Source: an uncultured Bacteroidales bacterium (GTDB lineage: Bacteria > Bacteroidota > Bacteroidia > Bacteroidales > UBA932). From it: a DNA stretch of 53,051 nt. The stretch spans positions 1 to 53,051 of the forward strand of contig CALUQB010000018.1 in NCBI GenBank assembly GCA_944322815.1, given 5' to 3'. This document shows, in pieces, positions 8,108 through 26,872 of this stretch. Below the pieces are notes generated by a model. That model made no database searches and had not been told where the DNA came from. It worked only from the letters and a program-made list of their open reading frames with translations. A program made the position numbers and the translations under genes. Within the stretch, counting starts at the first letter, position 1, and each line of letters opens with the position of its first letter.

Positions 8108-9331
8108 TCACCTGCGCGGGGAGACAGGTTTTTTCATACGATAACCGCAGTAAGCATAATACATGATGAAAAGGAAACACGGGATACCTATCCAGTACGC
8201 TGCCTGACTCCCGACCCAATCCTTCAGAAAACCATAGAGCAGAGGCACTATGGAACCTCCGGCAATGCAGGCTACCAGTATGGATGAACCTGTCTTGGCG
8301 AATTTCCCAAGTCCGTCCAAAGCCAGAGGGAATATGGCAGGATACATGACAGAACAGCCGAATGTCACCACGGCCACGGCATATACCGACATCCGGGCGG
8401 GAAGCAGGACCACGAGAAGAGTCCCGGCCACTGCTATCCACGAATGCAGGCGAAGGGCTGCACTTTGGCTCAGATATCCGGGAATCATGATGATGCCGAA
8501 GACATAGCCGGCCACCATGCCTATGCTCGGAATGAGCGCATACTGTTCGGGATCGGAAAGCCCCAGGCTCACTGCATAGTCCACTGAACTGGCCATGGCG
8601 ATGGTCTCTATGCCTACATACATGAACAGGGCGATACTCCCGAGAATCAGGTGCGGGAACTGCCAGATGGAAGTACGGCCGTCATCATACGCGCCCTCCA
8701 GGTCTTCCTCCTGTTCCCCGAACTTCATCTCTTTCAAAGGTGACAGCCAGACGAAGATTCCCAGAATCACGAAGATGACAGCAAGGATATAGAAAGGGAA
8801 TATGATGTCGGACAGGGACATCGAATCTATTGACTTGCCTATGAGCCAAGACAGGAAAAGCGGGGAGACAGGCCATGCCATGATGTTGCATATACCCATG
8901 ATGCTTATCCGTCTGGCAGCGGACTCTATGGGGCCAAGATATGTGGCGTAAGGGTTGATCGCCGCCTGGAGTATCGTATTGGCCGTGCCGCATACGAAGG
9001 AAGCCAGGAGGAAAAGCGGAAGACTCCGGCATTGTGCCGAAGGCACGAACAGAAGGAATCCGGCAGCGAAGACGGCGAACGACAGGACCATGGTCTTCCT
9101 GTATCCTATCCTGAGAATAAGCGATGTGGCCGGATAGCTGAAAACGAAAAACGCCGCGAATGTAGCCGCAAGAATCATGTAAGACTGGCCAGAAGAGACT
9201 TCCAGAGCACTTTCAAGCAGGGGCACGATATAGCTGTTGATACCCAGAGCGAATCCCACCACGAAGAACATCATCCCGATGATGACAAGGGGGATGACTA
9301 TGCCGCCGTTTTTCCGGAGTTCCATGATCAT
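8108..9331 (-). CDS. MFS amino-sugar permease, FucP/NagP type
   Basis: The product has 407 residues with about twelve hydrophobic segments. The FucP/GluP/NagP subfamily is recognised by VVGFALGINSYIVPLLE in the first helix, FSYPATSLILRIGYRKTM in the loop after helix 2, and the NPYATYLGP run near residue 125. Members import fucose, glucose/galactose or N-acetylglucosamine across the inner membrane with protons. Its start codon overlaps the kinase stop (ATGA), so it is coupled to a sugar kinase. In this operon, which also encodes MurQ and two hexosaminidases, the cargo is probably GlcNAc or MurNAc; that is inference. Confidence 0.82.
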   Translation of the reverse strand: MIMELRKNGGIVIPLVIIGMMFFVVGFALGINSYIVPLLESALEVSSGQSYMILAATFAAFFVFSYPATSLILRIGYRKTMVLSFAVFAAGFLLFVPSAQCRSLPLFLLASFVCGTANTILQAAINPYATYLGPIESAARRISIMGICNIMAWPVSPLFLSWLIGKSIDSMSLSDIIFPFYILAVIFVILGIFVWLSPLKEMKFGEQEEDLEGAYDDGRTSIWQFPHLILGSIALFMYVGIETIAMASSVDYAVSLGLSDPEQYALIPSIGMVAGYVFGIIMIPGYLSQSAALRLHSWIAVAGTLLVVLLPARMSVYAVAVVTFGCSVMYPAIFPLALDGLGKFAKTGSSILVACIAGGSIVPLLYGFLKDWVGSQAAYWIGIPCFLFIMYYAYCGYRMKKPVSPRR

Positions 9332-10194
9332 TCCTTATTTTTCGAGAGTTTTGCCGTGTGGTATTCCACGAGCCCGTCCATAGGCGCCTTGGCTATCTTG
9401 CCTATTTCCATGCCGTATTCGGCCACGACAGGATCGAGGAGGTCCCTGAAATGGTAGGCGACCGATCCCACCGCGTTGAATTTGTACGAGCGGTAATGGT
9501 CATAGCGTGTCACGATACGGTCGAAGAACTTCCGGAACGCGTCCGTGACCAGCTCCGGGAAATAGGGATCGAAATCAGTATGCTCCCTGATGAATCTGGC
9601 GTACTGGGCGCAGAACCTGTTCGGGAAAGGCCTGGTGTATATGATGTCGAGAAGTTCATCGTTGCCGTACCCCAGGGCTTCTCCCACCAGACGGTACACG
9701 CGGGAAGGCATGTTGCGTCTGATATAGTCCGTAATCATCCTCTTTCCAAGATAGCCTCCGCTGCCTTCGTCACCGAGGATGAAGCCGCAGGAATCCACGT
9801 TTAAACACTCGTTCTCCCCGTCGTACAGGCAGGTGTTGGCCCCGGTTCCCAGAATGGCAGCAAAGCCCGGTTCTGTCCCGAGGAGGGCACGGCAGGAAGC
9901 CAGGGTATCCATGGCTATAAAGACAGTCTCCGCGTTTCGGAACACTTTCAGCAATGTGTCGGTCATGAACGGGTACTGCAGCGGGGTGACTCCTGCTCCG
10001 TAAAAATAAATCTCCGAGACCTGTTCCGCAGGGAACGATTCAGGAAGACTGTTCCTGATATCCTCCACCATGTCCGCACTTGAGATGTAATTCGGGTTGT
10101 AGCCCTGGCTGATGAAGGACATCCGCTCGAAAGTCTGTTTTCTTATGCAGGACCAGTCGGTCTTCGAGGCCCCGCTGTCAGCTATCAGAATCAT
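9328..10194 (-). CDS. BadF/BcrA-type N-acetylamino-sugar kinase
   Basis: The product has 288 residues with an actin-like ATPase fold. The phosphate-1 loop is ADSGASKTDW at the N-terminus, the phosphate-2 loop is ILGTGANTCLYDG, and GDEGSGGYLGKRMI follows. Family members include eukaryotic-type GlcNAc kinase and the Tannerella forsythia MurNAc kinase MurK. Because murQ, which needs MurNAc 6-phosphate, lies in the same operon, MurNAc phosphorylation is a good candidate reaction, with GlcNAc as the alternative. The stop overlaps the transporter start (ATGA). Confidence 0.8.
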   Translation of the reverse strand: MILIADSGASKTDWSCIRKQTFERMSFISQGYNPNYISSADMVEDIRNSLPESFPAEQVSEIYFYGAGVTPLQYPFMTDTLLKVFRNAETVFIAMDTLASCRALLGTEPGFAAILGTGANTCLYDGENECLNVDSCGFILGDEGSGGYLGKRMITDYIRRNMPSRVYRLVGEALGYGNDELLDIIYTRPFPNRFCAQYARFIREHTDFDPYFPELVTDAFRKFFDRIVTRYDHYRSYKFNAVGSVAYHFRDLLDPVVAEYGMEIGKIAKAPMDGLVEYHTAKLSKNKE

Positions 10195-10211
10195 GTATGG
10201 TTTCTCCTGTT

Positions 10212-11246
10212 TCAGAATGGAAGTTCGTTATACCTGCCGTTGAACGTGGCCATGTGCGACCAGGCCTCGTGGTTCCCGAAAGTATTCTCGTTGTTCGAAG
10301 CATCGGCCAGATACCAGACTCCGTCAACGTAAATCTCGGCTATCACATGGCCTATCACCCCGCTCGCGTACTGGCACTGGGCGTGTCTGTATCTGGCCGG
10401 TATGTCGGCAGCCCGGCTCATGGCCACTATGGCATGAGTCAGGTCACAACAGTTTCCTCCCTTGTCCTGAATGGTCCCGACCGCACCCTTGGAAGTGTTG
10501 TTGTAGTTCAGCCACTCCCATTCGTCACGGGCATATTCGAAAATGGCCTTCGCCCTGTCGTAGTCCGAAACCAGGCCTTCAGTGGCGGTCTCCATGGCAG
10601 ATACCACCAGAGGATCGGAAACTTCGCAGTTCAGCGTCTCATGAAGATAGTCAGCATCCCAGGTGCTGATTTCTTCAGGCAGGGAATTGTTTTCCACGAA
10701 ATATGCGAAAACCCTCGTCATCATGACATAGATGGTATTGATGGTCATCTTTACGGAATACACCGAACCGTCAGGGTCCTTATGCTCTGTCTCCGTAGTG
10801 CAGTAGTTCGGGAAAACATTCCGCTCTCCGGCGTATTCATAGGCGATATCAAGCACGTCCATGAATGCATCGAATGTCATGACATCGTCATTGAAGGTAT
10901 TGTTCGCATAGCTGTCAGGTCCGGAGGCTATAATGTAAGTCACATCCTCATCCTGCCATGTATCAGGTTCCGCGATGATTTTCCTGAGAATCTGGATGCC
11001 GGCAGCCAGGTACCTGCCCCTGTTGTATTTCAGCCCTTCCACATTTACGGTCGCAGGGATATCCCCTGTCTCCGAGAACTCATCATAGGCCTTCGCCAGA
11101 GCTTCCGCGAAATATCCGTTCCAACCTGTTGCCGTGAACTCCACGTCAACATCGTCCTTACCGCTGTCGCCGCTGTTTTTGTCGCAGGCGCAACTTATAA
11201 AAAGCAATACGGAAAGAACCGCTATCGAAGTTATATATCGTTTCAT
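10212..11246 (-). CDS. Lipoprotein with PMBR-like repeats and a transglutaminase-fold cysteine peptidase domain
   Basis: The product has 344 residues. A hydrophobic signal ends in FISCAC, so lipidation at Cys19 or Cys21 is likely. Residues 44-90 resemble a pseudomurein-binding repeat (helix, then ETGDIPATVNVEG, then helix). Weaker copies sit near 122-150 (YAGERNVFPNY) and 168-195 (FVENNSLPEEIST). Residues 235-344 form a transglutaminase-like core with the triad Cys266 (GGNCCD), His300 (GHVIAEIYVDG) and Asp315 (LADAS). The order of binding repeats then Cys-His-Asp peptidase is that of archaeal PeiW/PeiP-type pseudomurein endoisopeptidases and of methanogen surface transglutaminase proteins. 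The run GAVGTIQDKGGNCCDLTHA looks close to those as I remember them. A peptide-bond cleaving role on a cell-wall polymer at the outer surface is inferred. A terminator-like hairpin separates it from the gene before it. Confidence 0.7.
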   Translation of the reverse strand: MKRYITSIAVLSVLLFISCACDKNSGDSGKDDVDVEFTATGWNGYFAEALAKAYDEFSETGDIPATVNVEGLKYNRGRYLAAGIQILRKIIAEPDTWQDEDVTYIIASGPDSYANNTFNDDVMTFDAFMDVLDIAYEYAGERNVFPNYCTTETEHKDPDGSVYSVKMTINTIYVMMTRVFAYFVENNSLPEEISTWDADYLHETLNCEVSDPLVVSAMETATEGLVSDYDRAKAIFEYARDEWEWLNYNNTSKGAVGTIQDKGGNCCDLTHAIVAMSRAADIPARYRHAQCQYASGVIGHVIAEIYVDGVWYLADASNNENTFGNHEAWSHMATFNGRYNELPF

Positions 11247-11288
11247 AAAAAAGTCGTTAAAACCGGATTCCGGTCAAACCAATTAAAA

Positions 11289-11347: not shown

Positions 11348-11399
11348 CGTCACACTGCCTTTCCGGCACAATCCGGAGGCTGGAAAACACTATTAACCG

Positions 11400-13700: not shown

Positions 13701-13735
13701 AATACTATTAGTTTAAAGTGTTAAATGATGTTTTC

Positions 13736-15121
13736 CTATTCTGATTCCCATAAGTCGTTCACGTCAGGGAATGTCCCGAGTGCATATCTGAACAGGACTA
13801 TTCCCGAGGCTCCGGATCCGACGAAATCCTCACAGTCGGAACGCAGCCGTTCCTCATCCAGGCCGCTGACATTGTTGCCGACATAGCTGTAAGTCTGCGT
13901 ACCGGCCCACACCTGGGCATCTGTGACTGTAGTGAAAAGTCGCACCATCTTCATGCACCAGTCCGTACTGTACGAGACTCCGCCCTCCTGATACCTGTAG
14001 ATCATCGGCATCAGTATATGAATGTACCGTCCCATCTGGGCAGCATTCTGTCCATAGTAATAAGCTGCGTTGTCCTCAGCCATCATGGCAGCCGAAAGGA
14101 TGATGTTTTCACCTCTGGCATCCATGGCTTCACGGATCTGGCGGCAGAACTCGGTCACGGCCCCCACGGCCGTAATCTCGGCTGAAGGATTGTGCTTGTA
14201 TGCCGTACCGCCGAATCTGATATAGTCCAGATGAATTCCCTGGACGCCGAATTCATCGATATACCCGTTGGCTCTCTCGATGATATCATCGAAAAGAGCC
14301 TGGTCATACCTGTTTTCAGCATCTATCACCGGGCTTACCCATCCTCCGTTATAGAAACACTGTATCCAGGCATGGACCATAATGCCAGCATCTGCCGCTG
14401 CGGCCATGAATTCCCTGGCAGTCTTCGCATTGCTGTACTGGAATGCAGCATAATTCAGCAGGACATGATCGTATCCCAGAGCCTTCATCCGTTTCATGAC
14501 GGCCGCATCGTCAGCCAGCCATTCCTTCATGTGAGTACTCCACAGCCAGATAGCATTATGTTTCGTATTTTCCAGAGACAGTATCAGATTCGCCTTTCCG
14601 CGAGAAGCGGCCGGGGACGATGTCCATGTTCCGTTTCCGTCAGGAATACGCTGATAAGATCCCGCTACCGGCAACGCCCCGGGAGAAGATATGGCATCCC
14701 GGCTGAAACTGTCGACGGCTTCTCCCGACCTGTCAGGAGCCAGACGCAGCTCGAACTGTGCATCTGAAGCGAAACCTGTACGCAGACCGTCATCGGCAGT
14801 GCTCAGCACCATGCGCTCACCTGCAGAAAGACTCTGCCCGGCGAAATCATGGATATTCATGCCGTCGAAATACTCGTCATACAGGAAAAGTCCGAGTCCG
14901 GACAGATCCACAGTCCCGGAAGACGTATTCACCAGCTCCACCCAGCTTTCCGCGTCCGTCCTCTCGTCATGGGCCGCCACTTCGTTGATGACTACGCCGG
15001 AGAAACGGGTCAGGTCGGGACCGTCGTTCCGGTCACAGCCGGAGGACAGGGTGAGGAGCACAGCTGAAACCATCAACTGCGACACAAAGACAGCTATTCC
15101 ATGCTTCATGCCCATGTTCAT
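13736..15121 (-). CDS. Lipoprotein with lamin-tail domain and GHL10-like glycosidase domain
   Basis: The product has 461 residues. The signal ends in LSSGC (Cys29). Residues about 40-145 form a lamin-tail domain (VINEVAAHDE, WVELVNTSSGTVDLSGLGLF). Residues about 185-460 form a TIM-barrel of the glycosyl-hydrolase-like GHL10/COG1649 kind, with GIHLDYIRFGG (Asp299 a probable catalytic acid) and HAWIQCFYN. E. coli DigH, a lipoprotein of this broad group, trims peptide-free peptidoglycan strands. That precedent and the neighbouring murQ make a wall-glycan substrate plausible, but the assignment to DigH's subgroup is uncertain. The start overlaps the murQ stop (ATGA). Confidence 0.65.
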   Translation of the reverse strand: MNMGMKHGIAVFVSQLMVSAVLLTLSSGCDRNDGPDLTRFSGVVINEVAAHDERTDAESWVELVNTSSGTVDLSGLGLFLYDEYFDGMNIHDFAGQSLSAGERMVLSTADDGLRTGFASDAQFELRLAPDRSGEAVDSFSRDAISSPGALPVAGSYQRIPDGNGTWTSSPAASRGKANLILSLENTKHNAIWLWSTHMKEWLADDAAVMKRMKALGYDHVLLNYAAFQYSNAKTAREFMAAAADAGIMVHAWIQCFYNGGWVSPVIDAENRYDQALFDDIIERANGYIDEFGVQGIHLDYIRFGGTAYKHNPSAEITAVGAVTEFCRQIREAMDARGENIILSAAMMAEDNAAYYYGQNAAQMGRYIHILMPMIYRYQEGGVSYSTDWCMKMVRLFTTVTDAQVWAGTQTYSYVGNNVSGLDEERLRSDCEDFVGSGASGIVLFRYALGTFPDVNDLWESE

Positions 15122-15963
15122 TCTTCCGGAAGTTTGTCTATATAACCATGCTCATAGAGATACTGCTCTGTCTTTTTCACATTGCCGTTCTCCTTGATCA
15201 TCTTCTCGCACCAGTCATAGTCCTTCAGCGACGGATTCCTCTCCATCAGCATCCTGACAGAACGGTCCACTACCTTGTTGTTTATCAGGCGGACATTCAC
15301 CATCCGGTTCCCTTCGATACGTCCCAGGCGGATGAGCACAGTGGTGCTGATCATGTCACATACCAGTTTCTGTACTGTACCGCACTTCATCCTGGTGCTT
15401 CCCGTGATATACTCCGGTCCGCACACGATCTCGCAAGGATAGTCCGAATACTTCGAAATAGGAGAATCAGGATTCCCGACAAAAGATCCGGTAGGTATAC
15501 CGTTTTCCTGACAGTGTTTCAGCGTGGCGAGCACATACGGAGTGCAGCCGCTGGCACTTATCCCCACTATTATGTCTTTAGGGCTGACATGTTTTTCCTG
15601 AAGGGTCCTCCATCCCTCTTCGATATCATCTTCGGCCTCTTCGAGGGCCAATACCAGATTCTCCACACCGCCGGCCAGGACGCACTGTATCATCTCCGGG
15701 TCAATACCGTAAGTGTTCGGGAGCTCCACCTGATCCAGGACAGACAGACGGCCCCCCGTCCCGCAGCCCACATAGAACATCCTTCCGCCATTGCGAAGCT
15801 GATGTTCGATAGCACTGACCAGTCTTTCCAGGTCAGGCAGCGCCTTTTCTATAGCGAGAGGGACTTTCTTGTCCTCCTCGTTGATGTCATGAAGTATTTC
15901 GGCCACCGATTTCTTCTCCAGATGGTCATACAATGACGGTTGTTCTGTTACTCTTAATGCCAT
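15118..15963 (-). CDS. murQ: N-acetylmuramic acid 6-phosphate etherase
   Basis: The product has 281 residues and a SIS-domain fold. MurQ hallmarks are YVGCGTGGRLSVLDQVELP (Glu80, matching the catalytic Glu83 of E. coli MurQ), EEAEDD (Glu111, matching Glu114), the sugar-phosphate loop GISASGCTPYV, and STRMKCGTVQK. The C-terminal NVRLINNKVVDRSVRML is typical. It cleaves the lactyl ether of MurNAc 6-phosphate to give GlcNAc 6-phosphate and lactate in the cytoplasm. Its place between GH20 enzymes and a wall-glycosidase-like gene is the strongest sign that this locus handles muramic acid. It starts 12 bp after the GH20 gene. Confidence 0.93.
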   Translation of the reverse strand: MALRVTEQPSLYDHLEKKSVAEILHDINEEDKKVPLAIEKALPDLERLVSAIEHQLRNGGRMFYVGCGTGGRLSVLDQVELPNTYGIDPEMIQCVLAGGVENLVLALEEAEDDIEEGWRTLQEKHVSPKDIIVGISASGCTPYVLATLKHCQENGIPTGSFVGNPDSPISKYSDYPCEIVCGPEYITGSTRMKCGTVQKLVCDMISTTVLIRLGRIEGNRMVNVRLINNKVVDRSVRMLMERNPSLKDYDWCEKMIKENGNVKKTEQYLYEHGYIDKLPEE

Positions 15964-15975: not shown

Positions 15976-17832
15976 TTAGAATTGTTTGGTTTTTATATCG
16001 CCTATAGGGCGGCCGTCTCTGACCGCCACCGCTTTGACTGTCTGCGATCTGTTTATGACGAACGGTTTCGCATACACCGGAGAGTCAGGTCCCGGTTCCG
16101 ATCCGTCCAGGGTGTAATGAATCTCTGCACCCGGAGCATCCACTGACATGGTCACCACCTTGCTGTATCTGGTATCCTCGTGGCAGACTATGTACGGTTC
16201 GAAAAATGCATCGCAATACCCCACATCCAGATAGTCCAGTCTTCCGAAATGGGTTTCCAGACGTCTGGCAAAAGAGTCCCAGTCCTTCCCGGCCCTCGTC
16301 CAGCCTGTCTCCGCTATCGCGCACATTCTCGGCCACGCCATATACTCCACACGCTCCGGACTGTCCATATATTCCGTCCAGACACAGCCTTCCACTCCGA
16401 TGATATACCTCGACTGTTCCGGAGTAAGGATCTCGGGAACCGGCTCGTAGTCATACATGGTCCTCAATGTCGTCGGGCCTCCCATGGCCAGGGGTTCGGA
16501 ATCCGGATCTCCCTGCCAATAGTCCAGATAGTATTTCTGATGAGGGGCCATCACGACTTCGTGATGCTGCTGCGCCGCTCTTATGCCGCCTTCCTCGCCG
16601 AGCCAGCTCATCACTTTGGCATTGGGCGCCAGCCCTCCCTGAAGGATTTCATCCCAGCCGATGATCTGACGGCCTTTGGAATTTATGTATTTCTCCATTC
16701 TGGTCACGAACCAGCTCTGAAGCTCGTATTCGTCCTTCAGGCCAAGTTTGCGGATGAGGGACTGGCAGTGAGGACATTCCTTCCAGCTGGCTTTCGGACA
16801 TTCATCGCCGCCGATATGCACGACCTCGGACGGGAAAAGTTCGAACACCTCGTCGAAGACGTCCTCCAGAAACTCGAACGTAGTTTCTTTCGGACAATAA
16901 ACCTGCTTGAACACGCCCCATTTGGTAGCAGTTTCATAGTGGTCTTCCAGTCCGCACGAGAGCTCGGGATAGCAGGAAATGGCAGCCAGCGCATGTCCCG
17001 GAAGTTCTATCTCCGGAATGATGGTCACGTATCTCTCTGCAGCGTATCTGACCAGATCCTTCACCTGCTCCTGGGAATAATAACCTCCGTATGGAGTACC
17101 GTCGTAGATACCTGACTTCAGAGAACCGACCACTGTCTCTTTCCTCCACTGGCCTTTCTCGGTCAGAAGCGGATATTTCCTGATCTCCAGCCTCCATCCC
17201 TGATCCTCCGTAAGGTGCCAGTGGAAACGGTTTACCTTGTGCAGGGCCATGATGTCGATGTACTTTTTCAGAAAATCGATATCGAAAAAGTGCAGGCAGA
17301 CATCCAGATGCATCCCGCGATAGGCGAACCTCGGTTCATCCTCGATGGAAAGGCACGGGACTTCCCACCTGATTCCTTTCTGACGGCTGCCGGCAAATAT
17401 CTCCGGCGGCAGCAGCTGGAAAAGCGTCTGCAACGCATAGAAAGCCCCGGCACCGTCACCATAGTCTATCACGATCCTGTCCGGAGTCACGTTCATGCCG
17501 TAGGATTCCGCAGGCAGCCCGGCATTCATGAAGTATATGGCATCCGATTCCGGCATGGTCCCGGAAATCTCCAGACTGAAGCCCGCGGCCGATGACAGTC
17601 TTTCATTCAGAAAGCCTGCAATCCGTAACATTTCATCAGACTGCACGTCGATGAATATCTTCGTGTCCCTGGCTATCCTGAACGCTCCTTCTGCCATCTG
17701 GAGATGATGCGGCTGAGGAATGACGTTCACCTGCGCGGTCCTGTCCGACACCACGGACTGTTCCGATGTCCGGGAGCAAGAGGCCAGCGCCGCGAGAAGG
17801 GAAAACAGGGAGATTATGTAAAATTTTCGCAT
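15976..17832 (-). CDS. Beta-N-acetylhexosaminidase, GH20 lipoprotein
   Basis: The product has 618 residues with a lipobox ending LASC (Cys19). A GH20b alpha/beta domain (about 35-160, with VIPQPHHLQMAEGAF) precedes the TIM barrel. The barrel carries NRFHWHLTEDQGWRLEI, PEIELPGHALAA and the catalytic Asp343-Glu344 pair in HIGGDECPKASW. A chitobiase-type C-terminal beta-sandwich (IHYTLDGSEPGPDSPVY) follows. It removes terminal beta-linked GlcNAc or GalNAc, probably at the cell surface or in the periplasm. It sits 2 bp after the ceramidase-like/GH20 gene and resembles that protein's second half closely, suggesting an old tandem duplication. Confidence 0.9.
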   Translation of the reverse strand: MRKFYIISLFSLLAALASCSRTSEQSVVSDRTAQVNVIPQPHHLQMAEGAFRIARDTKIFIDVQSDEMLRIAGFLNERLSSAAGFSLEISGTMPESDAIYFMNAGLPAESYGMNVTPDRIVIDYGDGAGAFYALQTLFQLLPPEIFAGSRQKGIRWEVPCLSIEDEPRFAYRGMHLDVCLHFFDIDFLKKYIDIMALHKVNRFHWHLTEDQGWRLEIRKYPLLTEKGQWRKETVVGSLKSGIYDGTPYGGYYSQEQVKDLVRYAAERYVTIIPEIELPGHALAAISCYPELSCGLEDHYETATKWGVFKQVYCPKETTFEFLEDVFDEVFELFPSEVVHIGGDECPKASWKECPHCQSLIRKLGLKDEYELQSWFVTRMEKYINSKGRQIIGWDEILQGGLAPNAKVMSWLGEEGGIRAAQQHHEVVMAPHQKYYLDYWQGDPDSEPLAMGGPTTLRTMYDYEPVPEILTPEQSRYIIGVEGCVWTEYMDSPERVEYMAWPRMCAIAETGWTRAGKDWDSFARRLETHFGRLDYLDVGYCDAFFEPYIVCHEDTRYSKVVTMSVDAPGAEIHYTLDGSEPGPDSPVYAKPFVINRSQTVKAVAVRDGRPIGDIKTKQF

Positions 17833-17834: not shown

Positions 17835-20828
17835 TCAGAATATTCTGGTTACAGTACGTCCTACCGGTGTGCCGTCAGCCTTGAAGCCTCTGGCCTTGAG
17901 AGTCATTCCCTTGTCCACCCGAATACGGTAAGGGGCCAAAGGAGAATCCGCGGACGGCTCACTGCCGTCTACGGTATAGCGGATATCGGCGAAAGGATAG
18001 TCCAGTTCCAGTTCCGCCGAACGCGGATAATCGGATTCGAGGTCCATGTTTATGATGACCTGCCAATAAGCATCACTGTATTCCTGTCCATGGGCCTTTA
18101 CCCTTTCGAATTCTTTTCCCACCCTCAGACGGAACGAATTCCAGTCTCTGGACTCTGCAGGTGACCAGCTGAGTTCGGCCATGGCTGCAGACCGTGGATA
18201 AGCGTGATGCTGCAGATCCTTGTCATCATGTATAGCTTCTCCCCACAGACAGGCCTGGAAGCCAAGCAGCAGGCTGTCCGCCCTGTCCAGCACTTCCGGG
18301 TCTACCATCTGGCGGAAATCATAGGTATAGGCTTTTCTCAGAGTGATGAAAAGGTGCTGGTTTTCAGGAATATCCTCGATCTCGTCCTGCACATAGTCAT
18401 AGTAGCACCATCTGTTGGGAGCCAATATGACCTTCATGTCCCGGGCGAATGCCTTCGATGCCGGCGCATGCCCTCTGTAGGACATAACTACGGTACTATT
18501 CACAGCACTGCCGTCCAGAATCTCGTCCCATCCTATCACAGTCTTCCCCCTCTCGCGGAGAAACGCATCGAAATGCTTGACGAAATAATACTGGAGATCA
18601 TCCACACCGGAAAGACCCAGACTGTCTGCCAGCCTGTGACAATACCCGCTGTTCCTCCATGCCGTCTTAGGACATTCGTCACCTCCTATATGATAATACC
18701 TGGAAGGGAAAAGTTCCAGCACTTCAGTGAATACATCTTCGAGAAACCTGAAAGTCCGCGGACTCGGGCAGTAGACATCCTCCATCACTCCCCAGTGCGT
18801 ACTTACTTCCTTCGGCTCGTCAGGTGTGCAGGACAGCCACGGATAAGCCGCTATGGCTGCGCTCGAATGCCCCGGAAGCTCTATTTCAGGGACCACGGTG
18901 ATGAATCTCTCGGCGGCATAGGCCACCACGTCCCGGATATCATCCTGCGAATACCACCCTCCATGAGGCCGGCCGTCACACGGACCGTCATAGCCGCAGG
19001 TCTCCGATCTCCACGCCCCGACCTCCGTCAGCCGCGGATATTTCCTGATTTCTATCCTCCAGCCCTGGTCTTCCGTAAGATGCCAGTGGAAAACATTCTG
19101 CTTGTGCATGGCCATCATGTCCAGGAACCTGTAGATTTCTTCCTTGGCATGAAACCACCTGCCGCAGTCCATGTGCATGCCACGCCAGCCGTATTCGGGC
19201 CAGTCTTCTATCCGGCAACATGGAAGGGACCATTTTCTGCCGGTGAATCCTCCGTCGCCGTAGACTTCTGCAGGAAGAAGCTGCATGATGGTCTGCATGG
19301 CATAGAACCGCCCTGCTTCCGAACTGGCAGACACGGTTATCTTTTTCGGGGTTATATCCAGAATGTAGCCTTCCTCAGGGACAGAGTCATCATCCAGATA
19401 CTTCACCTGCGGCTCTCCCGTGAACACATGTTCACCTGCACGAGGTTCGAGATGACGCGGTGCAGGTATGATGGAATACCTCTCATCGGACCCGACTGCA
19501 GCTATGGTCTTGAAGACAGCCTCCTGATATGCTGCAGGCATCTCTTCAGACAGCGGATAAGGAGCCTTGATGTAGACATGCATCTGTTCTATCTCATATT
19601 CGTACCCTTTACGGACCTTGTATGCGTGCGCTGACGGCAGATATGAATTCTGGCCGCCCGTGTACCCCGCGAAAAATATCATCTTGTCCGGAAAAGTAGC
19701 ACGCGCAGCCATCTGATACTCGCAGAAAGGCTCGCCCTGTGAGAAGAAAAATATGACTCCGTCAATGTTGACGGCCGCCATTTCGAAATCCAGGGAATTT
19801 TCGACTGTCCCGGTTTCGAACCGGGCCAATATCTCTTTCTCCCATCCGCGGACATCTTCCGCAAACCGGGGAAAATCGGTCTCCGCACTTCCGGCCAACG
19901 AGTCGGCATGGGCACGCACGGCATCCGGTGTCACCTCAGGTATGCTGAACGGCAGGGCGGCGTGCCGCGATGCGAAAGCCAGCCTGTCCCGGGACTCTGC
20001 CGGGGTGAATTTCATCTTTTCAAGGGAACGATACAACTCGTGACCTGTCTTTTCCGCATGGGCGGCATCCAGACAGCCTCCGACCGGATCCATGTTTCCG
20101 CCGGCCCCTGTAAGCTGGAACACTTCGCAGCCCCATTTCCTTGCGATTTCACGTCTGGCCACCCCGGAATAATCCGATGAAACCAGCAGACTGGACGGTC
20201 CCATGCAGACAGGATGGCATGCGAAATTTATGAAGGCGCAGATGGGACGGCCCTTTCTGTCCACAAAACGCGCCGCATACAGATCATGGTCCACCGGACC
20301 GTTCTTCTCGCATCTGTTGTAATTAATGCCCGCAGACCCCCTGGCCACTTCCAGAGAGAACTCCTGCCACAGGGACTCATCCGTAAGCACCTTCACGGCA
20401 TTCGACACTATGGCATTGAATACCAGAGACCTGTACCCGGCATTCGTACCGCCTTCCACGGAACATGCTCCTCCTATCCTCGGCGCACTGTGCGTATGGA
20501 TACAATGCAGAAGGATCCGTTCAGGGGACAGACCTGACCGACGGCTGATTTCAGACCTTATCCCGTCGGCCAGATCCGGCGGGATCTCCATCAGGTCATT
20601 GGAAATGATACATACTCTCCGTTCACCGTCCGTTATGGCCAGGGCATAAGTCCTGAGGGGAAGATGCATGCCGTCGGACAACTGCTTTCTGGCAGCAAAA
20701 CCGGCAAGCTCAAGCCTACCCCCCGCAGGGGAAATGTCATCCGAGCTGAACGCACACTTCAAGGAAGCGGCATCCAGAGACATTGCCGTCAGGCACAAGA
20801 TAGAAAAATATGTCAGTATCCTTTTCAT
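17835..20828 (-). CDS. Fusion of neutral-ceramidase-like metallohydrolase and GH20 hexosaminidase
   Basis: The product has 997 residues from the ATG at 20828, which shares a base with the susD stop (TGATG); a TTG one codon earlier is less likely. A signal peptide covers about 1-21. Residues 22-445 match the neutral/alkaline ceramidase fold: IHTHSAP (His111, His113), FACHPVCMG (His205) and QGEPFCEY (Glu365) would bind zinc, and GYTGGQNSYLPSAHAY follows. The ceramidase serine motif (GDVSPN) is replaced by GGNMDPV, so true ceramidase activity is doubtful. From about 450 a complete GH20 enzyme follows: NVFHWHLTEDQGWRIEI, PEIELPGHSSAA, catalytic Asp717-Glu718 in HIGGDECPKTAW, and a C-terminal chitobiase-like sandwich. 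No lipobox is seen. The first half may act on the acyl or acetyl group of an amino sugar; this is inference. Confidence 0.82.
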   Translation of the reverse strand: MKRILTYFSILCLTAMSLDAASLKCAFSSDDISPAGGRLELAGFAARKQLSDGMHLPLRTYALAITDGERRVCIISNDLMEIPPDLADGIRSEISRRSGLSPERILLHCIHTHSAPRIGGACSVEGGTNAGYRSLVFNAIVSNAVKVLTDESLWQEFSLEVARGSAGINYNRCEKNGPVDHDLYAARFVDRKGRPICAFINFACHPVCMGPSSLLVSSDYSGVARREIARKWGCEVFQLTGAGGNMDPVGGCLDAAHAEKTGHELYRSLEKMKFTPAESRDRLAFASRHAALPFSIPEVTPDAVRAHADSLAGSAETDFPRFAEDVRGWEKEILARFETGTVENSLDFEMAAVNIDGVIFFFSQGEPFCEYQMAARATFPDKMIFFAGYTGGQNSYLPSAHAYKVRKGYEYEIEQMHVYIKAPYPLSEEMPAAYQEAVFKTIAAVGSDERYSIIPAPRHLEPRAGEHVFTGEPQVKYLDDDSVPEEGYILDITPKKITVSASSEAGRFYAMQTIMQLLPAEVYGDGGFTGRKWSLPCCRIEDWPEYGWRGMHMDCGRWFHAKEEIYRFLDMMAMHKQNVFHWHLTEDQGWRIEIRKYPRLTEVGAWRSETCGYDGPCDGRPHGGWYSQDDIRDVVAYAAERFITVVPEIELPGHSSAAIAAYPWLSCTPDEPKEVSTHWGVMEDVYCPSPRTFRFLEDVFTEVLELFPSRYYHIGGDECPKTAWRNSGYCHRLADSLGLSGVDDLQYYFVKHFDAFLRERGKTVIGWDEILDGSAVNSTVVMSYRGHAPASKAFARDMKVILAPNRWCYYDYVQDEIEDIPENQHLFITLRKAYTYDFRQMVDPEVLDRADSLLLGFQACLWGEAIHDDKDLQHHAYPRSAAMAELSWSPAESRDWNSFRLRVGKEFERVKAHGQEYSDAYWQVIINMDLESDYPRSAELELDYPFADIRYTVDGSEPSADSPLAPYRIRVDKGMTLKARGFKADGTPVGRTVTRIF

Positions 20829-22789
20829 CAATATCCCGGGTTTTGGACGATGGTACCATTTGCCTTGGCTATCTCATTGGCCGGAATCGGCATCAGATAG
20901 TTCGGATATACATCTCCCACCTTCGGGAAATGTTTCTGAGTAGGAGATACTGTCAGACAGCAGTCGCCGTAGTCGACCTTGTACTCTTTCCCGAGCCACT
21001 TGTAAGTCACTACGCATTCGATATCTTCTCCTGTAGCGGACATGTAGTTCTGGCGTTCCACAGAATTCTTCCAGTAATAGCAGGTATTGTTCTTCGACTC
21101 GTCATACGGGCGCACCACACGATAGACAGTGTCCTGACGGGCGCCGTTCTTGAGTATCATGGTACGCATGCCTGCAATAGGGATATTTTCGTAGAACGGT
21201 GCGGTTTTCCAGCGGCGGACATCGAAATAGCGGGTAAACTCGAATGCAAGTTCGATGCGGCGCTCGTTCACGAGTCTGTCCCATAAAGCTTCTCCGCTTT
21301 CGCCGATCTGCGGCATCATCACGTCCGGACGCTGACGCACCTTGTTTATGTAAGTACGGCATTCGTCCTCATAGCCGAGATTGTAGGCGCATTCCGCGAG
21401 ATTCAGATACATCTCCGCCAGACGGAACCACGGATAGAGGAGACTGCCCACTTCGGCCTCCGTGATAGGAGAAGTCGGGATGTACCATTTGTTCAGCTCC
21501 ATGCCCATGGTATTCGTGGCATGCCACAGGTGCGTAGCCTTGCTGGTATAGTCCGGTTCGGTCTTTCCGGCTGCGAAATCATCTCTGGTCTTTCCGTCAT
21601 ACAGGAGATAGAGAAGGAGTTCGTTTTCATGATAGCCTGTAGCATCCGTGTTGCAGTAAGTGCTGAACGGAGCCGCGCACGTATAGTAAAAGCGGGGATC
21701 CCTGTCCCTGAACGGATGCTCCGGATCATAGCCGGAGCCGTCTTCGAATATCTTCTTTCCGTTCTTCATCTCGTAGTCCAGTACCATGGCCTGGGTAGGA
21801 TTGCACGCTGTCCAGCCGTTGAAATACACCACGGAGTAGAGAAGCTGTGCCTTTTTCGCAGAATTGGTAGTGGCATCCGCGTTCGATATGAAGTATTTGG
21901 CCCATATCAGTTCAGGGGAATGTATGTCCTTCCAGTAGCCGTCGTAGGTATCATCAAGGGAATATGCCCCATCCACATCGGCCCTGTCGACTATGGCCTT
22001 GGCTGCCTTGTAGGCGCGTTCCCACTTGCCCTGGAAATCATACTGGCCTCTGAATACGCTGCCCTGAGGAAGCTCCGGATCGTTGAACAGAGGTGAAGCC
22101 GCCAGCAGAGTGACACGGCATCTGAGAGCCAGGACGATGTCCTTGTTTATGCGTCCAAGCAGACAGTTTTCCTTCGCCGGCAGAAGTTTCTCCGCAGTTT
22201 CGAGATCGCCAAGTATGAAATCCACGCAATCGTCGAAAGTATCCCTTTCTTCCGCATACACGTCATTGAGGCTGTAGGCTGTGGTGATGATAGGGACTCC
22301 GGCATAGCGCTGGATGAGATTGTAGTAAGCCCATGCCCTGAGGAAGTAGACTTCACCCATGAGCCTGTCCCTGGATGCTTCATCCATTTCAGTCCCGTTC
22401 ACGGTGATATAATTGATGAAATAATTCATCCTGTATATCCACTCGTATGCACGGTTCCAGATATTCAGGGTAGTGGTTCTGGTATCGTGTGCAGTACCTC
22501 CTTCTTCTATGTACATCACGTTGGAAGGCGTCATGCTGCCGTCCGCGATGTATCTTGTGGAAGTTCCGCCATAGCGGAAGAATCCCTCGTCGGTGATACA
22601 GCTGATATTTCCTTCCTGAAACGGATCAGGAAGCACCGTATACAGTGCATTCACGTATGATTCGGCCAGAGCGGCACTGTTGAACACGACTTCTTCTGAG
22701 AGCTTGTCGAGAGGCTGCTTGTCCAGGAAGTCGTCATTGCAGGCGGCAAGCAACATCAGAACCGAAAGTATTGGAATGTATCTTTTCAT
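20828..22789 (-). CDS. SusD/RagB-family glycan-binding lipoprotein
   Basis: The product has 653 residues from the ATG at 22789, which gives the signal MKRYIPILSVLMLLAAC. The earlier ATG at 22801 only adds four residues. The signature CNDDFLDKQPLDKLSEE follows the lipid-anchored Cys. The usual helical SusD landmarks (FLRAWAYYNLIQRYAGVPIIT, RDPRFYYTC, RLAEMYLNLAECAYNLG, RRIELAFEFTRYFDVRRW) are in order. SusD proteins cap the SusC transporter at the cell surface and select the glycan. It follows susC by about a dozen bases and is coupled to the fusion hydrolase gene. Confidence 0.95.
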   Translation of the reverse strand: MKRYIPILSVLMLLAACNDDFLDKQPLDKLSEEVVFNSAALAESYVNALYTVLPDPFQEGNISCITDEGFFRYGGTSTRYIADGSMTPSNVMYIEEGGTAHDTRTTTLNIWNRAYEWIYRMNYFINYITVNGTEMDEASRDRLMGEVYFLRAWAYYNLIQRYAGVPIITTAYSLNDVYAEERDTFDDCVDFILGDLETAEKLLPAKENCLLGRINKDIVLALRCRVTLLAASPLFNDPELPQGSVFRGQYDFQGKWERAYKAAKAIVDRADVDGAYSLDDTYDGYWKDIHSPELIWAKYFISNADATTNSAKKAQLLYSVVYFNGWTACNPTQAMVLDYEMKNGKKIFEDGSGYDPEHPFRDRDPRFYYTCAAPFSTYCNTDATGYHENELLLYLLYDGKTRDDFAAGKTEPDYTSKATHLWHATNTMGMELNKWYIPTSPITEAEVGSLLYPWFRLAEMYLNLAECAYNLGYEDECRTYINKVRQRPDVMMPQIGESGEALWDRLVNERRIELAFEFTRYFDVRRWKTAPFYENIPIAGMRTMILKNGARQDTVYRVVRPYDESKNNTCYYWKNSVERQNYMSATGEDIECVVTYKWLGKEYKVDYGDCCLTVSPTQKHFPKVGDVYPNYLMPIPANEIAKANGTIVQNPGY

Positions 22790-22802
22790 GATATTCGTCA
22801 TC

Positions 22803-25800
22803 TTAGAATGTAAGTTTCACACCTGCGTTGAATATACGCATCTGAGGATAATTCTGGTAAGACTCGTCATCTGTCTCCGGGTCCACGTTCTTCAGTCCGG
22901 AGAAAGTCAGAAGGTTATAGCCGGCGATATAGATCCTGAGACTTCTGATACCTACCTTGGTGCCGAACATGGCCTGGTTGAATGTGTAACCAAGCTCGAC
23001 ATTCTTCAGTCTCAGGAAGGAAGCATCGCGATAGTAGAAAGACGAACGTGTCGTATGGCCGTTCGAGACATTGGAACCGAGTCGCGGCCAGTCGGAATCA
23101 GTATTGTTCAGTGTCCAGGCCTTTTCAGCCGCTTCCCTTTCCACGTTTCCGGACACAGGGTCCATAAGCGGGGCATAATAGTATCTGGCACGCCCCTGTC
23201 CCTGGAAGAGGACGGAAAGATCGAAACCTTTCCACTGCGCCTCGAAATTCAGGCCGAAGACCAGCTCCGGAACCGTAGTCAGGTCGCAGCGTTTGCGGTC
23301 ATACGTATCGATCACACCGTTTCCATCCAGGTCGGCGAATATGAAATCTCCGAGGGTGGCTCCGGCCATCTGAGGATATTTCTCGAGATCTTCCTGAGTC
23401 TTGTTGATGCCTATCACCTGATAGTACAGTTCTGCTCCCATTGGATGACCGGTCGCGTTCATGTATTCATGTCCTTCGCCCCACGGTGTCTCATCCATGT
23501 ATTCGATACGGTTTCTGGCGTACATGATATTTCCGCCGATACGGTAGAGGAATTCGCCGTTGGCTACCCTGTTCTCATGAGTCAGCTGCAGTTCGACTCC
23601 CCTGTTCGACACTATGCCTATATTCTCGTCAGGAAGATTGTTCGTCAGACCGGTATAGTACGGGATGGATGCATTCCTGGTGCAGAGGATGTTCGATCTT
23701 CTGGTATGGAAATATTCCACCTCCCATCCGAGCATTCCGTTGAATATCCTTCCGTCCAGACCGACATTCCATGTTCTGGCCACTTCCCACGTCACTTTCG
23801 GATTCGGGATGGTTCCCGGTATGATGAAGCTGACTTCCTTGTCATCGATCTTCATGCTGTATCCTGTCAAAGCAGTGTATTCGTATGTGGTGAGATACTG
23901 GAACGGATCGATGCTGTCATTTCCCTGTTCACCGTACGAAGCCCTGAGTTTCAGGTTCGTAAGCCAAGGGGCATTATTCTTCACGAACGGCTCTTCAGAA
24001 ATCCTCCACCCGAGTGAAACTCCCGGGAAGATACCCCACCGGCTCTCTTTCGGGAAGTTCTCGGATCCGTCGAAACGGATGATGGCCTGAATCATATAAC
24101 GGCTCTTCCAGTCATAGCCTATTCGTCCGAAGAAACTCCTGCGTGCGGTCTCCTTCGCATAACCGTCTATGGCATACCAGCTTTTATCCGCCGTACCGGC
24201 GAAAAATTCGTCGAGAAGGTCGGAATCATAGGAATTGATACCCGCATTGAACGTATCGTATCTGTAGGAACTCTGCTCGAAACCTGCGAGAGCCGAAACA
24301 TGATGGCCGTTGAAGTCCCTCTCATAATTGATATTGGCGTTGATCGTCAGGGTCTGGTAATTTTCCTGATATTCATGCAGTACAGGCGAAGACCAGTAAG
24401 AAATGGTACGCTGGTTGTAAAGTTCCGTGATCTCGTCATATTCCCAGTAATCCCAGTTCTTCAGCCAGTTTTTCCTGAACTCGCCCACAACGTCATACGC
24501 CATCCTGGCATTCACGGACAGTCCTTCTGTCAGCCAGGACATGTCCCAGCCAAGATTGAATGTCGTGTTTATGGTATTGATGGACGTCCTGTCGTATCCT
24601 GTCAGATCCTGGACGAGAACGGCAGGGTTCGTACCGCCTCTAAGCAGGCCGTTCGGATAATAGGTGGCTCCGGTAGGCTTCATTCTGATGGCGGTATAGA
24701 AAATACCGTTGTCATTCTCCGATGAAGACGGGAAAGCCGAGTAATTCTTCTGCTGCCTTCTTACATTCAGGTCGACACCGAGACGGAGACTTTCAGTCAC
24801 CTTTATGTCAACGTTCGAACGGACGTTGTACTGCGCATAGTTAGTGGCGGATTTCTCGTAGATACCGTCCTGGTATTGACCGTTGAACTGTACGAAATAG
24901 GCCACCCTGTCGGAACCTCCGTTCACGCTCACACCATATTTGTGCTGCACGGAGACCGGCTTGATGATTTCGTCCAGCCAGTCAGTATTAGGATACAGGA
25001 TCAGATCATCGCCTGCCGCATAGTGCTGGAGCTGCGTTTCGTTGTAGTACGGAGCCGCTCCTGTGATAGCCAGCTCGTCATTATAGGCATGGGTGTACAG
25101 AACGGCATCAGCCATGTCCACCAGCCTCGTAGGCTGCTGCAGGCCTATGTCATAGGTAAAGGTGACTCTCGGAGCTTCGCCATAAACACCCCTTTTGGTC
25201 GTAACCAGGATCACGCCGTTCGCAGATCTGGAACCGTAGATGGCGCCTGAAGCATCCTTCAGGACATTGATGCTCTCGATTTCCTCACCTGTCAGCCTGG
25301 AGAACTCGTCATCACGGCCTGGAATACCGTCGATAATGATCAGAGGGGAGTTGTCATCCAGAGTACTGCGCCCCCTGATGAACATGGTGGCGTCATCGTT
25401 CCCCGGCTCGCCGCTCCTGTTGCTGACCACGACACCGGACAGACGTCCGGCCAGACCCTGCGACAGATTGACAGAAGAGTTTTTCACCAGTTCCGCCCCT
25501 GAAGTCTGGGTGACAGAACCTGTCAGAGTTATCTTGCTTTGCGAACCATAGCCTATGGCGACAGCCTCTTCAAGCAGTTCGCTGTCCGTTTCCAGGGCCA
25601 CGTTCACCACGGAACGTCCGTCCAGCCTTACTTCCAGAGTCTTGTAACCGATGCTTGAAAAAACCAGTGTAGCATTCTCCGGTGCGGAGAGTTCGTAGCG
25701 GCCATCGAGATCAGTGGTGACTCCCGTAGCAGTCCCCTTGATCATGACCCCGGCTCCGATCACACTTTCTCCAGTCGTGGCGGAAACGACACCTCTGACC

Positions 25801-25886
25801 GTCATTTCCTGCGCGGACAGTACCTGGGAAAAGGCGAGAGCGCAAATGCCTGTTAAGACAAGTGTCAAGTGTTTCATGTGGTTCAT
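22803..25886 (-). CDS. SusC/RagA-family TonB-dependent outer-membrane transporter
   Basis: The product has 1027 residues: a signal peptide ending SQVLSAQ, a carboxypeptidase-regulatory-like domain (about 28-100: VRGVVSATTGESVIGAGVM), a plug with the SusC signature LKDASGAIYGSRSANGVILV near residue 215, and a long beta-barrel ending in FNAGVKLTF with a C-terminal Phe. It imports oligosaccharides or muropeptide-like ligands with energy from TonB. It is the first gene of the ten-gene minus-strand locus, behind its own promoter and next to a DeoR-type operator. Start: the ATG at 25886; the ATG at 25877 is an alternative. Confidence 0.95.
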   Translation of the reverse strand: MNHMKHLTLVLTGICALAFSQVLSAQEMTVRGVVSATTGESVIGAGVMIKGTATGVTTDLDGRYELSAPENATLVFSSIGYKTLEVRLDGRSVVNVALETDSELLEEAVAIGYGSQSKITLTGSVTQTSGAELVKNSSVNLSQGLAGRLSGVVVSNRSGEPGNDDATMFIRGRSTLDDNSPLIIIDGIPGRDDEFSRLTGEEIESINVLKDASGAIYGSRSANGVILVTTKRGVYGEAPRVTFTYDIGLQQPTRLVDMADAVLYTHAYNDELAITGAAPYYNETQLQHYAAGDDLILYPNTDWLDEIIKPVSVQHKYGVSVNGGSDRVAYFVQFNGQYQDGIYEKSATNYAQYNVRSNVDIKVTESLRLGVDLNVRRQQKNYSAFPSSSENDNGIFYTAIRMKPTGATYYPNGLLRGGTNPAVLVQDLTGYDRTSINTINTTFNLGWDMSWLTEGLSVNARMAYDVVGEFRKNWLKNWDYWEYDEITELYNQRTISYWSSPVLHEYQENYQTLTINANINYERDFNGHHVSALAGFEQSSYRYDTFNAGINSYDSDLLDEFFAGTADKSWYAIDGYAKETARRSFFGRIGYDWKSRYMIQAIIRFDGSENFPKESRWGIFPGVSLGWRISEEPFVKNNAPWLTNLKLRASYGEQGNDSIDPFQYLTTYEYTALTGYSMKIDDKEVSFIIPGTIPNPKVTWEVARTWNVGLDGRIFNGMLGWEVEYFHTRRSNILCTRNASIPYYTGLTNNLPDENIGIVSNRGVELQLTHENRVANGEFLYRIGGNIMYARNRIEYMDETPWGEGHEYMNATGHPMGAELYYQVIGINKTQEDLEKYPQMAGATLGDFIFADLDGNGVIDTYDRKRCDLTTVPELVFGLNFEAQWKGFDLSVLFQGQGRARYYYAPLMDPVSGNVEREAAEKAWTLNNTDSDWPRLGSNVSNGHTTRSSFYYRDASFLRLKNVELGYTFNQAMFGTKVGIRSLRIYIAGYNLLTFSGLKNVDPETDDESYQNYPQMRIFNAGVKLTF

Positions 25887-25927
25887 AGAAGAAAATCGAT
25901 TATAGTTTCAAAAAACCAATACTCATG

Positions 25928-25935
25928 CAAAATTA
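25928..25935 (-). promoter_or_regulatory. susC promoter -7 element
   Basis: On the minus strand TAATTTTG reads at 25935-25928, 41 bp before the susC ATG, matching the Bacteroidota TAnnTTTG box. A GTTG stands near the expected -33 position (about 25957). The operator lies about 47 bp further upstream. Confidence 0.55.
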
Positions 25936-25981
25936 AGCAAAGATTTCGTTCTCGCAACACTTTTTGATATTTTTGAATGCA

Positions 25982-26029
25982 ATTTATGTTTCGTTTTGAC
26001 AAATTTTCGATTCGAAACGAAACATAAAT
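25982..26029. promoter_or_regulatory. Perfect inverted repeat, probable DeoR-family operator
   Basis: Two perfect 15-base arms, ATTTATGTTTCGTTT (25982-25996) and AAACGAAACATAAAT (26015-26029), are separated by 18 bp. A further TTCGATTCGAA palindrome lies in the spacer. The site is central in the 221-bp gap between susC and the divergent deoR gene, upstream of both -7 boxes. Repeated TTTCG half-sites of this kind fit DeoR/GlpR regulators. The divergent regulator most likely binds here and controls both transcripts. Confidence 0.65.
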
Positions 26030-26067
26030 CAATGCATGAAAATTTCCGGTTTTCCGATTTCTTTTAT

Positions 26068-26075
26068 TAATTTTG
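26068..26075 (+). promoter_or_regulatory. deoR promoter -7 element
   Basis: TAATTTTG matches the Bacteroidota -7 consensus, 32 bp before the regulator ATG and 38 bp after the inverted repeat. Confidence 0.5.
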
Positions 26076-26107
26076 TACGAATACGTGCTCATTAAAACAC
26101 AAAAATC

Positions 26108-26872
26108 ATGTCGGCTATAGCGGAAAGAAGAAAATACATACTTGACAGCATAGTCAGGGAGGGGTTCGTGAAAGTGTCGGTCCTGGCGGAGAAATTCGGA
26201 GTCACACAGACTACCATACGCAAGGACCTGAACCATCTCGAAGCCAAAGGGCTGCTCTACAGGGCATACGGAAGTGCACTGCCTACGGCAGCGCAGGTCA
26301 TGGACATCACCATGAGCACGAAGAGACTGATAAACTTCGAGAAGAAACAGAAGATAGCCGAAGCCGCAGCCGCCCTTATAGAAAACGATGACTCCATCAT
26401 CATAGCTTCAGGTTCTACGATGACCATATTCGCCGAGGTGCTCAAGCCTAAGGGTAGACTGAATGTCGTGAGCACGGCCGTGAACATATCTGCACATCTG
26501 GGGGATATCCAGGGCATCACGGTCATGCAGGTTGGGGGACTATTGTACAGCAACACACTTTCGGTCCTTGGGGCGGAAGCCAACAATGCCATAAGCAACG
26601 TATTCTGTTCCAAGGCCTTCATCGGAGTGGACGGACTGGATCCGGACTATGGCATCACATGCGCCACCACGGAAGAAGCGAGCCTCACCCGGCAGATAAT
26701 CAGGTCCGCGAAAAAATGCGTGGTGCTGACAGACTCGAGCAAACTCGGGAAACGCGGCTTCGCCAGGATCTGCCAGATGGAGAATGTAGACATCCTGATC
26801 ACAGATGACGGACTGCCTGAAAATGCCCGTGCCAGACTGGAAGAACTGGGAGTCAGACTCATAATAGCATAA
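26108..26872 (+). CDS. DeoR/GlpR-family transcriptional regulator
   Basis: The product has 254 residues. The N-terminal winged helix-turn-helix (residues 4-55) has RRKYILDSIVREGFVKVSVL and the recognition helix VTQTTIRKDLNHLEAKGLL. The rest is a DeoRC sugar-phosphate sensor domain with the motif IIIASGSTMTIFAEVL, the later GVDGLDPDYGITC, and VLTDSSKLGKRGFARI. Such regulators respond to phosphorylated sugars. Divergent from the PUL and next to a perfect inverted repeat, it probably senses an amino-sugar phosphate from that pathway (for example GlcNAc 6-phosphate). An antisense frame across its start is not a gene. Confidence 0.92.
   Translation: MSAIAERRKYILDSIVREGFVKVSVLAEKFGVTQTTIRKDLNHLEAKGLLYRAYGSALPTAAQVMDITMSTKRLINFEKKQKIAEAAAALIENDDSIIIASGSTMTIFAEVLKPKGRLNVVSTAVNISAHLGDIQGITVMQVGGLLYSNTLSVLGAEANNAISNVFCSKAFIGVDGLDPDYGITCATTEEASLTRQIIRSAKKCVVLTDSSKLGKRGFARICQMENVDILITDDGLPENARARLEELGVRLIIA

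Follow-up and report, generated by a model that had tools for sequence, protein, structure and literature searches.

Bacteroidota take up glycans by means of polysaccharide utilization loci (PULs), in which a SusC/SusD pair is accompanied by surface lipoproteins, glycosidases and an inner-membrane transporter. A ten-gene locus of this composition lies in a stretch of 53,051 nucleotides (the window; contig CALUQB010000018.1, positions 1 to 53,051) from the 2,675,811-base genome of an uncultured, Cryptobacteroides-like Bacteroidales bacterium. By its gene content the locus is a PUL: susC adjoins susD with a gap of 1 bp, and lipoproteins and enzymes (two GH20 domains, a DUF4015 protein and a BACON protein, with lipobox-like cysteines recognised by eye) are linked to the pair. 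It differs from the familiar glycan PULs in its regulator, which is of the DeoR family rather than a hybrid two-component system or a sigma/anti-sigma pair, and in its proposed target, an archaeal wall; the polymer that it serves is probably pseudomurein, of which the walls of Methanobacteriales are made. We know of no bacterium that lives on pseudomurein, and a literature search covering the titles of open-licence papers found no description of a pseudomurein PUL or of a pseudomurein-eating bacterium.

Pseudomurein is described in PMC11915815 as a polymer of N-acetylglucosamine (GlcNAc) and N-acetyltalosaminuronic acid (TalNAcA) joined by beta-1,3 bonds; the latter replaces the N-acetylmuramic acid (MurNAc) of bacterial walls. 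The pseudomurein-cutting enzymes so far known come, according to PMC2989375, from methanogen viruses and prophages. Two of these, PeiP and PeiW, consist of pseudomurein-binding repeats followed by a Cys-His-Asp transglutaminase-like domain and cleave the Ala-epsilon-Lys bond (PMC2989375). The transglutaminase-fold lipoprotein of the window has a similar layout, with a repeat-like region ahead of the transglutaminase-fold domain; it differs from both in having no C71 match, in its weak sequence likeness, in its lipoprotein signal and in being encoded in a bacterial PUL. ORF_00035 of the virus Drs3 is homologous over nearly its full length and shares the domain order and the C-terminal ending; this virus protein has no lipoprotein signal, and its activity is assigned by annotation.

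Two described systems resemble the sugar-processing genes of the locus. The murTKQ salvage operon of Tannerella forsythia also has a MurK-family kinase adjoining MurQ and a transporter (PMC10465942); the specificity residues of MurK are replaced in the window kinase. NagS, the Streptomyces GlcNAc 6-phosphate dehydratase, is likewise a MurQ-related SIS enzyme, and removes a C3 group from a hexosamine phosphate other than that of MurNAc (PMC12680351). NagS belongs to another clade, lies outside a PUL, and is likened to the window enzyme by description only.

The lipoproteins and their viral relatives

The transglutaminase-fold lipoprotein provides the direct tie to methanogen viruses. A tblastn search of 50,697 phage records matched five of them. 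The best match is the 'pseudomurein-binding repeat protein' of Methanobacterium virus Drs3 (41% identity, E 1e-30; two records, one virus); the others are an unannotated faecal phage (E 6e-3) and Methanobacteriales virus vir080 (E 9e-2; again two records of one virus). When the relative L022 is used as the query, nine phage records are matched and Drs3 is again at the top (E 1e-23, runner-up E 2e-2). When the profile of the 12 family members is compared by hhalign to the Drs3 protein, its columns 58-345 align to residues 18-300 (E 9.4e-39), and this alignment extends from column 58 to the final residue of both. In the Drs3 protein itself, Pfam PMBR matches three stretches; a transglutaminase core is also present, and C71 is matched slightly below its cut-off.

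Likeness to the binding repeats is seen in the N-terminal part of the lipoprotein, which scores 39.2 against the Drs3 repeats and 23.4 against the PeiP repeats; neither score was equalled in 200 shuffles. Pfam PMBR (PF09373) is matched by four of the 12 family members (best E 3e-5). In the catalytic part, C266, C267, H300 and D315 are invariant in all 12 members and supply the residues of a putative Cys-His-Asp triad. For an AlphaFold2 model of the lipoprotein (mean pLDDT 81.7), Foldseek ranks PeiP first in two collections: the top PDB chain is PeiP 8z4f (E 1.9e-10, 320 columns, TM-scores 0.32 and 0.36) and the top BFVD match is PeiP of psiM2 (E 4.7e-10). From sequence and model together, the protein is proposed to be a pseudomurein endoisopeptidase.

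No relatives were found in scans of viral contigs with the family alignment or the Drs3 protein as queries. Among plasmids the matches are distant transglutaminases (lowest E 1e-5 among the best 20 of 84 records). The 33-position Pfam PMBR model, a low-power search, gave a single 12.2-bit match at an unrelated place in the window genome and found none of 247 genomes of the order above its cut-off.

The BACON lipoprotein shows a second repeat-like region. Its start resembles the N-terminus of the transglutaminase-fold family (hhalign E 6.5e-19, in an alignment that includes the signal peptides), and the profile of that family also matches positions 13119-13700 in the BACON gene (E 1.1e-11). Against the Drs3 repeats its N-terminal region scores 42.4 (equalled by none of 150 shuffles); the whole BACON alignment matches Drs3 with a probability of 58. 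Two DUF4015-family regions served as negative controls and gave shuffled-mean scores, with 29 of 60 shuffles equal in each case. That the middle of the BACON protein is repeat-like too was considered and rejected, since 9 of 60 shuffles scored equally well; its C-terminal part, with a score of 24.9 (none of 60 shuffles equal), may be repeat-like. The BACON lipoprotein is proposed, on its N-terminal similarities, to be a wall-binding protein.

The third lipoprotein had been called GHL10-like in a preliminary description of the locus. It is indeed a lipoprotein; the GHL10 label does not hold, as PF02638 (GHL10/DigH) is not listed at E 10 and the match is to DUF4015 instead, alongside a lamin-tail-like domain (LTD). 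D299 and E349 are invariant in 17 aligned members, and an endo-glycosidase is proposed from the family. The DUF4015 protein has no match among the phage records and the BACON protein has two, both over the BACON domain; the direct tie to methanogen viruses is therefore that of the transglutaminase-fold lipoprotein only.

The transglutaminase-fold lipoprotein occurs in 12 of the 299 family genomes searched (window genome counted), in one of 393 genomes of the order, which is the window genome itself, and at three loci in a species-genome collection. Across the phylum (296 genomes), a profile search recovered the full-length protein solely in the window genome and the catalytic part alone in six others. 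Combined, and with L001 and G118, whose contigs are equally long, counted once, the searches give 14 genomes including that of the window. The gene set recurs in the 13 further genomes, which argues that the composition of the locus is more than chance. Two of these, G118 and L002 (Candidatus Cryptobacteroides intestinipullorum), share about 99% identity with the window, measured for L002 in the transglutaminase-fold protein, and are thus not independent.

The preliminary description would have been abandoned if relatives had shown no linkage of murQ with susCD; the linkage is conserved, with MurQ of the window type on the same contig in 11 of the 13 further genomes. In G096, MurQ is on a different contig, which bears most of the locus. 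The contig of G289 terminates immediately before MurQ, and in G295 MurQ was not seen in the 20 of 31 kb read, where the contig stops at the lipoprotein.

In several relatives the BACON-family proteins are longer, and a shorter DUF4015 gene is present in addition to the first. The BACON-family proteins of L003, L020, L021, L022, L023 and L026 have 1037-1486 residues compared with 766 in the window, as if units had been added. In a goat-omasum genome (L003, L124), the SusCD, DUF4015, BACON and transglutaminase-fold genes are doubled around a single MurQ-kinase core.

The kinase, the MurQ-like enzyme and other possible substrates

The preliminary description read the locus as a PUL whose target is a wall polymer containing peptides and GlcNAc, and named peptidoglycan and pseudomurein as candidates. 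The general reading is supported; of the two polymers, pseudomurein is favoured because of the Drs3/PeiP likeness of the lipoproteins (PMBR matches, shuffle tests and fold). If the polymer were bacterial peptidoglycan, the transglutaminase-fold protein would cut stem peptides or cross-links, GH20 would free GlcNAc, the kinase would form MurNAc 6-phosphate and MurQ would turn this into GlcNAc 6-phosphate. Such a role is unlikely, although several features of the two sugar enzymes speak for it.

The kinase belongs to the MurK family; it has no Pfam match, and the likeness is seen in matches to six distinct MurK-family sequences in the PDB (E 2e-58 to 3e-53). In a tree of 51 distinct rows, the 15 window-type kinases are set apart from the rest by a branch with support 100, which is met by the long branch of L105 (the tool gave a warning). 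The MurK contacts reported in PMC10465942 were mapped through an alignment to 8oqw, whose letters agree with the numbering of that paper. All 51 rows retain D95, N119 and D141, the residues that hold hydroxyls of the sugar. F34, T94 and S133, on the other hand, have given way to Asn, Met and Asp, respectively, in every one of the 15 window-type kinases and in none of the 36 others, and S133-P134-L135 becomes Asp-Ser-Cys/Leu in all 15, so that the small residues of MurK are not retained.

According to PMC10465942, S133-P134-L135 and T94 leave space for the lactyl group of MurNAc, and a bulky charged residue in the S133 region clashes with this group. The same source provides a precedent in favour of peptidoglycan: K1058, a kinase of T. 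forsythia that has Arg and Ala in place of S133 and P134, still binds MurNAc, with slow turnover. The 36 other kinases have 15 Pro, 15 Ser, 4 Arg, 1 Lys and 1 Ala at the S133 position, and hence not all of them are MurK-like. The Asp of the window type would be equally compatible with plain GlcNAc and with a 3-O-linked sugar.

The MurQ-like enzyme passes PRK05441 and fails the MurQ equivalog TIGR00274 (248.3 bits; 302 required). It retains the two glutamates of the DxxE and ExAEDD stretches, which we take to be the catalytic pair. It was compared with MurQ from 199 genomes of the family and 198 of the order (loci for the best 30 matches each, plus other loci), a sample that leans to close relatives. 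In a quick, midpoint-rooted tree of 62 distinct rows, 16 sequences of the window type are separated from the rest by a branch (length 1.24, support 100). The substitutions S70G, P83N and A102N are fixed in 16 of 16, against Ser, Pro and Ala in 46 of 46 others; N203D is divided in the same way. The solved structure 4s12 has the canonical letters at positions 70, 83, 102 and 203, and the window type thus departs from the canonical active-site neighbourhood. The goat-omasum enzyme has the same S70G, P83N and A102N changes; two more ordinary MurQ copies elsewhere in that genome have the first Pro of the PPT motif changed. Arg104, which all 46 others retain and all 16 window-type sequences lack, was dropped as an argument about the pocket because 4s12 has Leu there.

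The window-type enzyme occurs in 12 of 199 family genomes, and eight of these 12 also carry an ordinary MurQ. In the window genome the divergent enzyme is the sole MurQ, which would fit peptidoglycan. The rule that MurQ acts only on MurNAc 6-phosphate, from which the preliminary description had argued, is not transferable, because the clade is divergent and because the MurQ-related NagS is reported to dehydrate GlcNAc 6-phosphate (PMC12680351). Given separate clades and altered substrate pockets, the claim that kinase and MurQ act on MurNAc is unsupported; all told, MurNAc is not a likely substrate of either enzyme. Families linked to peptidoglycan are also missing from the search results: the matches listed at E 0.001 for the ten proteins contain no peptidoglycan amidase, lysozyme, NlpC/P60, LysM or DUF1343/NamZ.

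Half of the 12 genomes that carry the window-type MurQ, six in all, have no match to the transglutaminase-fold lipoprotein and contain a second type of PUL (L095, L096, L097, L098, L100 and L101; 20 kb read around each MurQ, with 10 kb more in three). The kinase and one or more ceramidase-GH20 genes are present in 6/6, GH20 in 5/6 and a major facilitator superfamily (MFS) transporter in 4/6; the SusC stretches are more distant (28-36% identity). DUF4015, BACON and transglutaminase-fold lipoprotein matches are found in 0/6 at E 1e-5. Unknown lipoproteins follow SusD in L095 and L097; the unknown lipoproteins of the second type have no PMBR match, and the pseudomurein reading is therefore not extended to it. 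Additional genes in L095 encode a GH18-GHL10 fusion, a peptidase of the C1 family and a protein like N-formylglutamate amidohydrolase. Since the core is shared, several polymers may be fed into its pathway, and the target of the window type may be set by the lipoproteins.

A GlcNAc-rich host or dietary glycan (mucin, N-glycan or chitin) is quite improbable as the substrate. The two GH20 domains, the GlcNAc-type MFS transporter and a kinase that possibly takes plain GlcNAc would suit it, as would the GH18 in one locus of the second type; the lipoproteins would then bind or trim something else, and MurQ would have a side activity. Against this, none of the ten genes encodes a fucosidase, sialidase, galactosidase or sulfatase, and the peptidase and the repeat-like proteins, which accompany the same genes in relatives, are left unexplained. 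That the lipoproteins are weapons or adhesins against methanogens, with feeding secondary, is highly improbable: the nearest relative found among the phage records is a methanogen-virus protein, but the genes sit within a complete import and catabolic operon (SusCD, GH20, kinase, MFS).

Pseudomurein as the proposed target

A number of observations weigh against pseudomurein. The strongest, as regards the tie of MurQ and kinase to this polymer, is the ceramidase-GH20/MurQ/kinase core in six genomes without the lipoproteins. The presence of a MurQ relative is itself unexpected, because pseudomurein has no MurNAc. The window lipoprotein has neither a PMBR nor a Peptidase_C71 match at E 10, and Peptidase_C71 (PF12386) is matched by none of the 12 family members at the same threshold. 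The catalytic part scores 17.2 against PeiP with 17 of 200 shuffles equal, so that its sequence likeness is not significant, and the whole family matches PeiP weakly by sequence (probability 6.4). The TM-scores to PeiP are low (0.29-0.45, root-mean-square deviation 12-20), and the second PDB fold match is the Cytophaga cysteine protease 3isr, with a deviation of 2.5. Pfam PMBR is absent from 11 BACON-family members, and the BACON model (mean pLDDT 78.6) has its best PDB matches in immunoglobulin-like or BACON-bearing entries. Finally, PMC3124540 reports that binding to the methanogen wall requires three pseudomurein-binding motifs, that two or three also bind bacterial spheroplasts (a point for peptidoglycan) and that the motifs are found in a few non-gut bacteria.

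Pseudomurein is nevertheless the likeliest target, and the following pathway can be proposed. Two surface lipoproteins would hold the methanogen wall via their pseudomurein-binding-repeat-like regions, and the transglutaminase-fold cysteine peptidase would, by homology and fold, cut the Ala-epsilon-Lys cross-links as PeiP does. From their families, the DUF4015 lipoprotein would cut the glycan, the ceramidase-like domain would detach the peptide that the uronic acid carries, and GlcNAc would be set free by the GH20 enzymes. SusCD would import the fragments and the MFS transporter would move sugars over the inner membrane. The kinase and the MurQ-like enzyme, both diverged from the MurNAc type, would feed hexosamine phosphate into metabolism; DeoR may sense a sugar phosphate and act on a palindrome between susC and deoR.

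A more specific scheme is tentative and rather doubtful. After the kinase has acted on the GlcNAc of a TalNAcA-(1-3)-GlcNAc-like disaccharide, the MurQ-like lyase would eliminate the 3-O-linked sugar as MurQ does lactate, and gut Bacteroidales would eat methanogens via an archaeal-wall PUL whose peptidase and binding repeats are shared with methanogen viruses. Such an elimination is made plausible by the removal of another C3 group from GlcNAc 6-phosphate by NagS, as PMC12680351 describes it, and no hydrolase would be needed for the talosaminuronic bond.

If true, the pseudomurein reading would mean that bacteria and archaea of gut and rumen are joined by a new feeding link. It would offer a source of enzymes for opening methanogens, perhaps including talosaminuronic-bond glycosidases, and a lead for methane work. 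A MurQ-like enzyme that cleaves the talosaminuronic linkage would be a glycan-cleaving lyase of a new kind. The pseudomurein reading would also show that peptidoglycan salvage is not proved by the presence of murQ.

Gene order and regulatory region

All ten genes on one strand and the opposing deoR are confirmed with the spacing given in the preliminary description (coordinates in Table 1). The gaps are 1, 2, 12, 17 and 35 bp, with a single one of 153 bp, and there are three 4-bp overlaps. The transporter had been described as NagP-type; it passes the gluP model, but not the NagP equivalog (265.7 bits; 625 required).

Table 1. Features of the locus, with positions in the window
Feature	Position	Strand	Basis
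MFS sugar transporter, gluP/NagP type	8108..9331	-	TIGR01272 gluP 210.7 bits (cut-off 202.55)
BadF/MurK-type sugar kinase, separate clade	9328..10194	-	No Pfam match; matches solved MurK-family chains
Transglutaminase-fold lipoprotein	10212..11246	-	Repeat-like N-terminal region and transglutaminase-core domain
BACON lipoprotein, 766 residues	11400..13700	-	PF13004; residues ~34-205 pseudomurein-binding-repeat-like
LTD/DUF4015 lipoprotein	13736..15121	-	PF13200 28.3 bits (cut-off 27); PF00932 below cut-off
MurQ-like SIS enzyme, separate clade	15118..15963	-	PRK05441 296.6 bits (cut-off 168)
GH20 beta-N-acetylhexosaminidase	15976..17832	-	PF00728 401.8 bits
Ceramidase-like domain fused to GH20	17835..20831	-	PF04734 43.9 bits (part of model); PF00728 354 bits
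SusD, surface substrate-binding lipoprotein	20828..22801	-	PF07980 154.4 bits; PF14322 96.5 bits
SusC, TonB-dependent outer-membrane transporter	22803..25886	-	TIGR04056 898 bits (cut-off 368)
Inverted repeat with TTTCGTTT boxes, candidate operator, susC-deoR intergenic	25982..26029		Predicted
DeoR-family regulator, divergently oriented	26108..26872	+	PF00455, PF08220

A shorter palindrome is found at the position equivalent to the TTTCGTTT site in L018; L026 and L099 have TTTCGTTT boxes without such a palindrome. The ceramidase-like and GH20 parts, which form a single gene in the window (TTG start as listed), are encoded by separate genes in L097 (12761-16095).

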